From the NCBI GenBank assembly GCA_003696775.1, contig RFFS01000167.1, positions 1 through 54,237 of the forward strand: DNA of 54,237 bases, written 5' to 3'. The first letter of the stretch is position 1. Each line of letters starts with the position of its first letter. The notes beneath the pieces are model-generated. The model was not told where the DNA came from. It was given only the letters and a program-made list of their open reading frames with translations, and searched no databases. Positions 2,285 to 54,237 of the stretch are shown one piece after another. This stretch comes from Calditrichota bacterium (GTDB lineage Bacteria > Calditrichota > Calditrichia > Calditrichales > J004). A program made the position numbers and the translations under genes.

Positions 2285-3229
2285 TTATTGGGTTGCCACC
2301 TGAACGGGGTCTTGAGCCCGCACCAGGTGATAAGCGATGAGCATTTGCGCCAGAGCAAGCGGATACGAGACATGGTCTTTACTGCCGTCATTAAAAACTC
2401 CCAGCTTTTCCAGATTAAGCGCGCTGGCCACAGACATCAGGTGATTACCGAGTAATTTTTCAAGTTCGCCGCTTTTTTCCGCGCTGATATTTCCATCCAC
2501 ATTAAGGATATCCGCCGGTTTGCCTTCATCGCGGCCCAGACTCATGGAAATAGCCGGCGTCCCGTCACTATTGGCCGCGTGTTCCAGAACATCGCCCAGG
2601 TCGGGATGCGGAATACTGGGTTTGAGCGCCATTTGCACATTTAAATGGGAGCCGGTTTCTTTTTTATTTTGATCCGGCGGATAAAAGCTCACCACCAGAT
2701 CGGAAAACGAGCGTTGCGGATGAATAAAATGGGCCGCGTCATCCACCCGGGCATTGAGGGAACGCAACACTTGTTCCCGGGTATAGCCGCGTTTACTGGT
2801 ATCCCGTTTGATCTTCCACTCCACCCGCAGGTCTTCCACCGGTGCCAGATAAACTTTTACATCAAAGCAATTGCGCATCACCCGGCTGTGAAAACCCAAC
2901 AGGCCCTCCACAATCACAAACTTGGCCGGGCGTATGTATTCCGGCGGATCAAAATCCCCCGTGGAGTGATTATAGACCGGTTTCAGGATAGGCTGCCCCT
3001 GGCGCAATAAATTAAAATGCTGCTCCATAATATCCACATAATTACAGGCCGGATTCAGGGCCGTTATGCCCATGGCCCGACGTTGTTCCCGGTTGTAACG
3101 ATGATAATCATCGCTGCAAATAGCGGTCACATTTTCTTCGCCCAGCAAATTCACGATGCCCTTGGTTAATGTGGTTTTTCCGGAGGCGCTGTCACCCACA
3201 ACGCCCAGCATGACGGTTTTTCGGTTCAC
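2285..3229 (-). CDS. prk: Phosphoribulokinase
   Basis: This enzyme phosphorylates ribulose 5-phosphate to ribulose 1,5-bisphosphate with ATP, making the RuBisCO substrate. The protein is 314 residues and starts with GTG, supported by GGGAG six bases upstream. It has Walker A GDSASGKTT (12-20), the SDDYH motif (39-43), and a PVYNHSTGDFDPPE substrate region resembling the cyanobacterial/plant type more than the shorter proteobacterial type. The Walker A cysteine that forms the thioredoxin-regulated disulfide in plant and cyanobacterial enzymes is serine here (position 16). Its partner cysteine is retained (C38 in AICSDDYH), so classical disulfide control is unlikely. The C-terminal ~100 residues are less familiar. 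It sits 34 bp after rbcS, so it is probably cotranscribed. Confidence 0.93.
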   Translation of the reverse strand: MNRKTVMLGVVGDSASGKTTLTKGIVNLLGEENVTAICSDDYHRYNREQRRAMGITALNPACNYVDIMEQHFNLLRQGQPILKPVYNHSTGDFDPPEYIRPAKFVIVEGLLGFHSRVMRNCFDVKVYLAPVEDLRVEWKIKRDTSKRGYTREQVLRSLNARVDDAAHFIHPQRSFSDLVVSFYPPDQNKKETGSHLNVQMALKPSIPHPDLGDVLEHAANSDGTPAISMSLGRDEGKPADILNVDGNISAEKSGELEKLLGNHLMSVASALNLEKLGVFNDGSKDHVSYPLALAQMLIAYHLVRAQDPVQVATQ

Positions 3230-51388: not shown

Positions 51389-51606
51389 GCCATCCGTTTG
51401 TTTGAAAACCCGAAATATACCATAATGCGTGGATATTAGCTACACCGGGTCCCGCTTCCGGTCAGGAAAAAACAAAAATAATTTTTTTTCTAATGATATT
51501 TATCACAACGTCCGATTAGGGTGCCCGTTATAATACATGCGACTTTTCCATTCCTCTTTTTCACATAATTGATGCAGCCTTGTCATCAGATTTTTGGGGT
51601 TATTCT

Positions 51607-51996
51607 ATGAACACAATCAATAAATGGATTTTCATTGGAATATTTATCGCCGCCGGGCATATAACAGGGCAGGCAAATGGGCCCGCACACACAACAATGG
51701 TGCGCTGGCAAAAACAGATGCTGGCCATCCGGCTCACGGCGGAGACCATGAAACGTTGGGAAACCCAAAACACTACATTAAACGGCTTTACCGGCAATCC
51801 GGAATTCGACGCCCTGGCCGCGTCCATCAATGTAAGCGCGATCGAGCTGTATATCGACCATAAAAACCCAACACCGCAAAAATGGTTGATTCTCTATTTT
51901 AATTCGGAACTGGACGGCACGGACATTGTGAATGACTTTTTACAATTACCTTGTGTCAAACAGGCTCAGATAGTCGGGGTTCGCACGTTGGCCTGA
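51607..51996 (+). CDS. Small secreted protein resembling the propeptide of the adjacent subtilase
   Basis: This is a 129-residue protein with a signal peptide (about 1-24). Residues 60-79 (GFTG...DALAA...V..I) and 93-125 align with the N-terminal propeptide of the downstream protease at 65-84 and 106-138. From W93/W106 to G124/G137 the alignment is gap-free, with matching Trp, Phe, two Asp, two Val, Ala-Gln and Gly. S8 propeptides act as intramolecular chaperones and inhibitors, and free-standing relatives of inhibitor family I9 exist, so this may be a separate inhibitor or folding helper. No protease domain is present. It lies 47 bp upstream of the protease gene, on the same strand. Confidence 0.7.
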   Translation: MNTINKWIFIGIFIAAGHITGQANGPAHTTMVRWQKQMLAIRLTAETMKRWETQNTTLNGFTGNPEFDALAASINVSAIELYIDHKNPTPQKWLILYFNSELDGTDIVNDFLQLPCVKQAQIVGVRTLA

Positions 51997-52043
51997 TAAA
52001 AAGAAATTCATTATATCACACAACAAAATAAAGGGGATCGCTT

Positions 52044-54237
52044 ATGCGTTTTTTTACTTTTCATTTCATGTTATTATGTATCGTTTCCGGTATGTGGGCG
52101 GGAGATGTTAAACTTTATCAGCCTTCTTCCACGCAATCCGTCCAAGCGGAATCTCGTGTTAAATCGTATGAAATCACCGTAAAGTTTTCACCTGAATTAT
52201 GGAACCGGTTTGACTTGCAACGTGCCCAAAGCGAAGGCCTTACCGGTGTGGATGCCGTGGATCAACTGGCCGCGCAATTACCCGTTGCGCGCATCTATCA
52301 GCAATTCCCCCGCGCCAAATCCACCGATATATACGGCCGCCCCATGAATCTTCTCGGATGGTTTAAAATCCGTTTTTCCACCGATGTGGATGTTTACGAC
52401 GCGGTTCAAAAATACAAATTGATCAACGGTGTACAGGACGCTCAGGTAATCGGCATTCATCCTGTTGACCTGGTGACCCCCAATGATCCCAATTACACCA
52501 ACGGAGACATGTGGTATCTTAATCAAAGCCAGGACCATGATGTGGACGCACCCGAAGCCTGGGATATCAACCGGGGCAACGCAAGCATTATCGTGGCCGA
52601 CCTGGACAGCGGTTTCCGTTATTATCATAAAGACCTGGGAGGCGCCAATGCCGCTTTTAACAATAAAACCGCTTCCCGCGGCAATATGTGGATCAATGAT
52701 GCGGAACTGAACGGCACCGCCAATGTGGACGATGACGGCAACGGTTATGTGGATGACTGGATCGGTTGGGATTTTGTTACCGGCAACCCGCAAAATTTTG
52801 ATGTGGGAGATGATTACGATGTGGAAGATAACGATCCCAGCGATCATAACGGACACGGTACGCATACCATGGGTTCCATCGCCGCCATTTCCAATAACGG
52901 CTACGCGGTAAGCAGCATTTCCGGCGGCAATGGAGAAACTAACGGTCAGGGCAACGGTGTAAAAGGTATGTGTCTGCGCATCGGTTGGGATGATTTTCTC
53001 GGACTGGGTTTTGTGGGCATGGATTTTGCCGCCAATGCCTTTATTTATGCCGCGGACAACGGCGCTAAAATCGCCAATTGCAGCTGGGGCTCTTCCAACA
53101 CGGGTGGCTTGGCCGAAGCGATCGATTATTATCTTTACGGCACCACCACACCTACCGGTAACGAACCGCAATTACGCTTGATATTTAAAGCAGCCGGTAA
53201 TGATAACAACGAGCAATCGGATTATATGCTGGATCGCAGTGATGTTATTGGCGTGGCGGCCACCGATTCCAACGATGTGAAAGCCAGCTTTTCCACTTAC
53301 GGAACCTTTGTGGACATTTCCTCGCCGGGTGAACATATTATGAGCACCTACCACGATAACACCGATGACGCCAACGATTATGTGGCCTTTTTGGATGGCA
53401 CCTCGATGGCCACGCCAATTTGTGCTTCCGTTGCCGCGTTGGTCTGGAGCCATAACAATGCCCTGACAGCCACGGAAGTAGAGCAAATACTTTATAACAC
53501 AGCTGATGATATTGAGAGCATCCCCGGCAACTCCAGTTATATCGGCAAACTGGGCGCTGGTCGCGTAAATGCCTTTGCCGCCGTGAATCAGGCCGACCAA
53601 ACCCTGCCGGTTGAACTGACTTCTTTTACGGCCTCGGCCCGGAACGGCGCGGTTGTGTTAAACTGGAGCACCGCCAGCGAAATCGACAATATGGGCTTTG
53701 CCGTTTATCGCTCCACCTCCCAATTCGGTGATTATGAGAAACTGGCCGACTTTAACGACTATGACGCCTTACGCGGTCTCGGGACTTCTTCCCAGGGACA
53801 GGACTACCACTTTACAGACAATACGGTAAATGTTTCCGAAACCTACTGGTATATTCTCAAGGATATCGATGTGAACGGTGTGGAAACCGAACATGGCCCC
53901 ATCAGCGTATTTGTGAGCCCGGATGCAGGCGTTAAACCGGGACAATTGCCGGTAAAATTTGAACTGAGCGGCAATTATCCCAATCCGTTTAACCCGGAAA
54001 CCCATTTTACGCTGAGTATTCCCGCGCTTAAGGAAAACGGCACCGATGTTCGTATAACCATTTATGATTTGTTGGGTAAAAAAGTGAAAGAGCTCTATGC
54101 CGGACACCTGCAAAGCGGGGTATATAACTTTACATGGAACGGCACCAATGATAACGGTCATATAATGCCTTCCGGAATGTACATATACAGGGTGATCACC
54201 AATGAATTTCAACAATCCCGCAAAATGGTACTGATGA
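52044..54237 (+). CDS. Subtilisin-like serine protease with type IX-like sorting domain (3' end cut by window)
   Basis: This is an exported S8 peptidase of 731 visible residues. The frame runs off the window at ...RKMVLM, so probably only one or two codons are missing. The signal peptide is at about 1-19 and the propeptide at about 40-140. The catalytic triad is D188 in ADLDSG, H271 in GHGTHT and S454 in GTSMATP. After the protease domain come an Fn3-like module (LPVELTSFTA...LNWSTASEIDNMGFAVYRS, about 524-620) and the C-terminal sorting domain starting NYPNPFNPE near 645. It is likely secreted through the outer membrane and attached to or released from the surface. AAGGGG is seven bases before the ATG. 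The small propeptide-like gene is directly upstream. Confidence 0.93.
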   Translation, partial: MRFFTFHFMLLCIVSGMWAGDVKLYQPSSTQSVQAESRVKSYEITVKFSPELWNRFDLQRAQSEGLTGVDAVDQLAAQLPVARIYQQFPRAKSTDIYGRPMNLLGWFKIRFSTDVDVYDAVQKYKLINGVQDAQVIGIHPVDLVTPNDPNYTNGDMWYLNQSQDHDVDAPEAWDINRGNASIIVADLDSGFRYYHKDLGGANAAFNNKTASRGNMWINDAELNGTANVDDDGNGYVDDWIGWDFVTGNPQNFDVGDDYDVEDNDPSDHNGHGTHTMGSIAAISNNGYAVSSISGGNGETNGQGNGVKGMCLRIGWDDFLGLGFVGMDFAANAFIYAADNGAKIANCSWGSSNTGGLAEAIDYYLYGTTTPTGNEPQLRLIFKAAGNDNNEQSDYMLDRSDVIGVAATDSNDVKASFSTYGTFVDISSPGEHIMSTYHDNTDDANDYVAFLDGTSMATPICASVAALVWSHNNALTATEVEQILYNTADDIESIPGNSSYIGKLGAGRVNAFAAVNQADQTLPVELTSFTASARNGAVVLNWSTASEIDNMGFAVYRSTSQFGDYEKLADFNDYDALRGLGTSSQGQDYHFTDNTVNVSETYWYILKDIDVNGVETEHGPISVFVSPDAGVKPGQLPVKFELSGNYPNPFNPETHFTLSIPALKENGTDVRITIYDLLGKKVKELYAGHLQSGVYNFTWNGTNDNGHIMPSGMYIYRVITNEFQQSRKMVLM

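Follow-up and report, generated by a model that had tools for sequence, protein, structure and literature searches.

A stand-alone homologue of subtilase propeptides encoded ahead of a subtilase with a type IX sorting domain in Calditrichota: a candidate periplasmic inhibitor

The stretch of DNA analyzed here (the window, 54,237 nucleotides) is the entire contig RFFS01000167.1 of a bacterium from the deep-branching phylum Calditrichota. Two neighbouring genes near its 3' end are the subject of this study (Table 1): a small ORF of 129 residues (51607-51996, + strand), predicted to encode an exported protein, and a subtilase, both of them present as a previous reading made from the letters of the DNA (the sequence-only reading) had claimed. 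The contig ends (54231-54237) no more than one or two codons from the subtilase stop, the encoded C-terminus being ...MVLM in the window and ...MILMK in the orthologues.

Table 1. Positions of the features discussed, in window coordinates
Feature	Position	Strand	Description and basis
Palindromic box TGATATTTATCA, putatively CRP/FNR-type	51494..51505	+	within conserved block CTAATGATATTTATCACAACGTCCGATTAG; seen directly
-10 box TATAAT, shared promoter	51529..51534	+	identical at 5 of the 6 related loci
Small gene	51607..51996	+	stand-alone Peptidase_S8_N homologue, signal-like N-terminus; Pfam, AF2, hhalign, orthologues
Predicted signal-peptide region, ~residues 1-24	51607..51678	+	by eye from sequence and orthologue alignment
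Propeptide-like domain, residues 35-129	51709..51993	+	AF2 model m9e000040a60b
C-terminal strand and tail VKQAQIVGVRTLA	51955..51993	+	10 of 13 residues invariant in four genomes
Gap between small gene and subtilase, 47 nt	51997..52043	+	no + strand terminator, no consensus promoter
Subtilase, 731 codons in window	52044..54236	+	signal peptide, own propeptide, S8 catalytic domain, T9SS type A sorting domain
Protease's own propeptide, ~residues 31-144	52134..52475	+	PF16361 over cut-off, AF2

The subtilase matches the Pfam families PF00082 (3.3e-34) and PF16361 (1.4e-8, over the cut-off), and its catalytic residues D188, H271, N386 and S454 were assigned from motifs, the triad being intact. Its mature part starts near T145; alignments with structurally characterized mature subtilases begin at residues 145-147. 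The T9SS type A sorting domain was recognized by TIGR04183 (40.4 bits, cut-off 23), and SprA is encoded in the same genome (match over the cut-off). No such C-terminal sorting domain was found in the small protein (Pfam scan and TIGR04183 search) and its N-terminus has no lipobox; the signal region, which ends in ...LFA/QNT in the orthologues, was modeled with low confidence by AF2. Rfam gave no match, and a false ORF was ruled out by dN/dS together with the conservation of the gene in four of four genomes.

The sequence-only reading had aligned the small protein with the propeptide of its neighbour, and all the residue pairs it listed (W93/W106 to G124/G137) proved correct, as did the block G.TG....D.LAA...V..I that both proteins contain. 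In the gap-free part (W93-V125 against W106-I138), 9 of 33 residues are identical. The local alignment score of 86 compares with 25.2 +/- 4.4 for shuffled sequences (0 of 2000 shuffles as high), BLASTP gives E = 4e-7, and the neighbour's propeptide is also the top non-self match (E 0.004) when the whole genome is searched in six frames. Profile-profile comparison (hhalign) of four orthologues with 32 propeptides, drawn mostly from PF16361 hits, gave 98.3% probability and an E-value of 1.2e-14 over 102 columns (small-protein residues 30-129). Shuffles, BLASTP and profile comparison rule out chance similarity, and on these alignments the small protein is a homologue of the Peptidase_S8_N (PF16361) propeptides of subtilases. 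The PF16361 profile itself scores it at 15.9 bits (E 0.019, below the cut-off of 30.5) and its orthologues at 18-21 bits, and an S8 catalytic domain on the same chain is missing, the protein being a stand-alone ORF in all four genomes; since the single-profile cut-off was missed and no protease is fused to it, it is not a standard member of PF16361. Inhibitor_I9 (PF05922) had no match anywhere in the genome, the small protein included, and a PDB sequence search with the small family returned only spurious matches to repeat proteins.

AF2 predicted the small protein from four sequences with a pLDDT of 71.5 (core ~80-90), and its elements are a first strand (35-43), two helices (45-54 and 65-73), two further strands (76-84 and 91-100), a helix (104-112) and a last strand (117-127). 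The protease's own propeptide, modeled from 32 sequences with a pLDDT of 88, is predicted to have the same order of elements (b-a-a-b-b-a-b), in line with the resemblance claimed from the sequence. Foldseek against the PDB found generic ferredoxin-like matches only, whichever of the two models was the query, and is not diagnostic either way because a genuine propeptide gives the same outcome.

A total of 385 genomes were searched, one of the searches taking in all 40 genomes of the class in this set. For two other phyla, PF16361 surveys of 1 and 4 genomes were too small to be informative. The free-standing gene was found in all four genomes of the genus and in no others among those searched, always in one syntenic locus, where it immediately precedes the same subtilase and is oriented divergently to uvrA, so that the suggested co-occurrence of the pair in relatives was borne out. 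A single-sequence scan of genome contigs gave no match, and with the alignment it recovered the same three genus genomes; the remaining matches to the small-family profile are all N-terminal propeptides of subtilases. One apparent free-standing copy, a 243-aa frame in G017:C172, was rejected as a frame-broken subtilase: at positions 1-1995 of this locus (L039) the subtilase lies in two frames through an apparent frameshift, real or due to misassembly, and can pass for a free-standing propeptide in a scan. A second stand-alone Peptidase_S8_N protein (~135 aa) was seen in another family of the class at an unrelated locus (L092, G024:C49, ~2733-3140, + strand). It is a probable lipoprotein (lipobox LFAC/STT) with a PF16361 score of 30.7 bits, over the cut-off, and no subtilase was seen in the 8-kb stretch examined; this protein suggests that the S8_N domain has split from its protease probably more than once.

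In the sister genus (two genomes) the same protease lies beside uvrA without the small gene, and parsimony favours neither a gain in the genus nor a loss in the sister genus. There, the orthologous protease is directly followed by a second subtilase-like gene (L038 6919-9091, L090 8498-10255) with a different N-terminal region (EHTNIERLNRLKEKYHQRY...). Both genera share a recognizably related block of promoter sequence (TAATG-N3-TT-N-RTCACAA-N3-CCGA ... TTATAAT or a variant), which lies before the small gene in all four members of the genus and before the protease in the sister genus. As the related promoter fronts the protease directly in the sister genus, the small gene sits inside the leader of the protease.

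The conserved promoter block spans positions 51490-51534 of the window, and the centre of TGATATTTATCA is 29.5 nt upstream of TATAAT (replaced by TTAATAT in the G005 locus). If TATAAT occupies -12 to -7, the centre of the box would be at -41.5, which is the class II position of CRP/FNR-type activators, although the activator family is itself inferred. A consensus scan picked up no sigma70 -35 hexamer, which fits an activator-dependent promoter, and a regulon search of the genome for the block, allowing up to 2 mismatches, found no second copy. Because the short gap between the genes contains neither a + strand terminator nor a consensus promoter, one transcript is likely, and the small gene and the protease are probably co-transcribed; intergenic gaps are similarly short in the three other members of the genus. 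Adjacency in 4 of 4 genomes, with a shared promoter that lies solely before the small gene, matches the arrangement of a protease-inhibitor operon of the Spi/staphostatin kind.

The sequence-only reading went further and proposed a duplicated propeptide. Its account was upheld for the propeptide homology, the order of fold elements and the co-occurrence of the pair, while descent from the propeptide of this particular protease was neither supported nor rejected by the trees, so that a duplicate of the neighbour's own propeptide is not established. The four small proteins form one clade with a very long stem (~2.3 changes per site), and the tree does not join them to the neighbouring propeptides; when they were held with these, the AU test gave p 0.24-0.33, and p 0.55 for other placements. 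Within the clade the branch to the window copy is short, so this copy may have changed least since the ancestor. Some further propeptides from the order (G015, G017) score as high against the small family as the neighbour's does, or higher. This match, together with the unsupported placement beside the neighbour's propeptide, would suit an inhibitor of other subtilases, either the cell's own secreted S8 proteases (e.g., the 901-frame S8_N protease of contig 173) or foreign ones, the operon being incidental. We regard such a role as quite improbable, given the strict linkage to one protease in 4 of 4 genomes, directly behind the promoter of that protease.

The small gene is under purifying selection as judged by its substitutions, with dN/dS of 0.14-0.16 between orthologues and 0.22-0.25 in those comparisons with the window copy whose synonymous sites are unsaturated; the corresponding values are 0.04-0.05 for the protease propeptide and 0.005-0.02 for its catalytic domain. 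The third strand (9 of 10 residues) and the last 13 residues (10 of 13) are the most conserved, the first helix (2 of 17) the least. The tail is of interest because in subtilase propeptides the C-terminal strand runs into a tail that fills the substrate cleft (PMC6993865). In the window, the small protein stops at ...RTLA (51987-52020), 11-12 residues before the end of the orthologues, which go on ...TLAFEEVK plus 5-7 residues, apparently because of a small indel close to the stop codon. Aligned with the neighbouring propeptide, the window copy ends at the P3-equivalent residue, and P2-P1 contacts may therefore be missing; with the subtilisin BPN' capping motif as the starting point of the count, its length would reach P1. 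This shorter tail is the main caution for a tail-dependent inhibitor. Along with the fast divergence, it would also suit a functionless remnant of a duplicated propeptide, kept by chance, yet this is hardly credible and appears disfavoured by the substitution pattern, considering the low dN/dS between orthologues, the frame that is intact in all four genomes, and the conserved start, signal-like segment and core.

We consider it fairly probable that the small protein acts in the periplasm, is co-expressed with the protease, and inhibits enzyme that has matured too early. The shared promoter would drive the small gene ahead of a subtilase that retains its own propeptide, and the small protein would be exported with a Sec signal and remain in the periplasm, which its Sec signal and lack of a T9SS sorting domain make the most likely location. 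If any protease matured prematurely, the small protein would bind its catalytic domain there in the manner of a propeptide, its beta-sheet against the surface helices of the enzyme and its C-terminal tail in the substrate cleft, and the enzyme would stay silent until type IX export parts the two. The cargo of the T9SS is believed to fold in the periplasm, with proteases such as gingipains kept there as zymogens by their prodomains (PMC10202324). An exported regulator of surface proteolysis, also suggested by the sequence-only reading, is less likely than periplasmic action, since only the protease has the T9SS sorting domain. The homology, the predicted order of the fold, the conserved pairing, the position between promoter and protease, the purifying selection and the conserved tail were all observed here, and to these our explanation adds a presumed export route, co-transcription, binding, inhibition and a protective purpose. 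Faster evolution than that of the protease propeptide (0.15 vs. 0.04-0.05), the far divergence, the truncation of the window copy and the confinement to one genus speak against an inhibitor.

The small protein could instead be a trans-acting folding chaperone that supplements the covalent propeptide while the protease folds in the periplasm. Propeptides of this class are folding catalysts as well as inhibitors (PMC6993865), the small protein would be translated first and close to the protease, and a precedent is the separately encoded ORF2 of the Aeromonas sobria subtilase ASP, as cited in PMC5638518. By gene arrangement the two systems are alike in that a bacterial subtilase adjoins a separate partner gene; they differ in that ASP has no propeptide and is followed on its 3' side by ORF2, while the Calditrichota protease keeps its propeptide and has its partner on the 5' side. 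That well-conserved propeptide (dN/dS as above), and a sister-genus protease that does without the small gene, make a chaperone rather unlikely. For the inhibitor that we prefer, it can be proposed, more tentatively, that this subtilase has two propeptides, one covalent and one separate, the latter a periplasmic inhibitor that is stripped off by type IX secretion, so that crossing the outer membrane would amount to activation.

In fungi, plants and protozoa, stand-alone propeptides of subtilases are already on record and are attributed partly to convergence; in the open-access literature searched, no described bacterial stand-alone S8 propeptide was found. POIA1, yeast PBI2, Arabidopsis SPI-1, Toxoplasma TgMIC5 and SUB1-ProM are stand-alone propeptide-like proteins that inhibit or regulate subtilases (PMC6993865). 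The first three, which are MEROPS I9 inhibitors, and TgMIC5 resemble the small protein in being free-standing with a subtilase propeptide fold; unlike them, it has no PF05922 match, goes with the distinct PF16361 type of propeptide, and still has detectable direct homology to a protease propeptide. SUB1-ProM of Plasmodium is likewise a secreted stand-alone protein, conserved genus-wide, whose gene lies beside a subtilase with a similar propeptide, and it has been shown to inhibit that subtilase; it differs in being eukaryotic, with no operon and a target released into the parasitophorous vacuole (PMC6993865), whereas the Calditrichota gene is bacterial and lies 47 nt upstream of a protease with a T9SS sorting domain. 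The pairs SpeB-Spi, staphopain-staphostatin and bfp/bfi and btp/bti of Bacteroides also combine a secreted bacterial protease with a small co-transcribed inhibitor, which is thought to neutralise prematurely active enzyme, both partners being exported in Bacteroides; these are, however, cysteine proteases (C10/C47) with unrelated inhibitors and no subtilase propeptides (PMC3462683).

Related genomes with and without the gene at one locus show a route by which a stand-alone propeptide could arise, with a propeptide domain placed between the promoter and the start codon of the protease. If confirmed, the pair would be a bacterial S8 counterpart to the SpeB-Spi and staphostatin safety systems and would bear on how T9SS-exported proteases are silenced in the periplasm.
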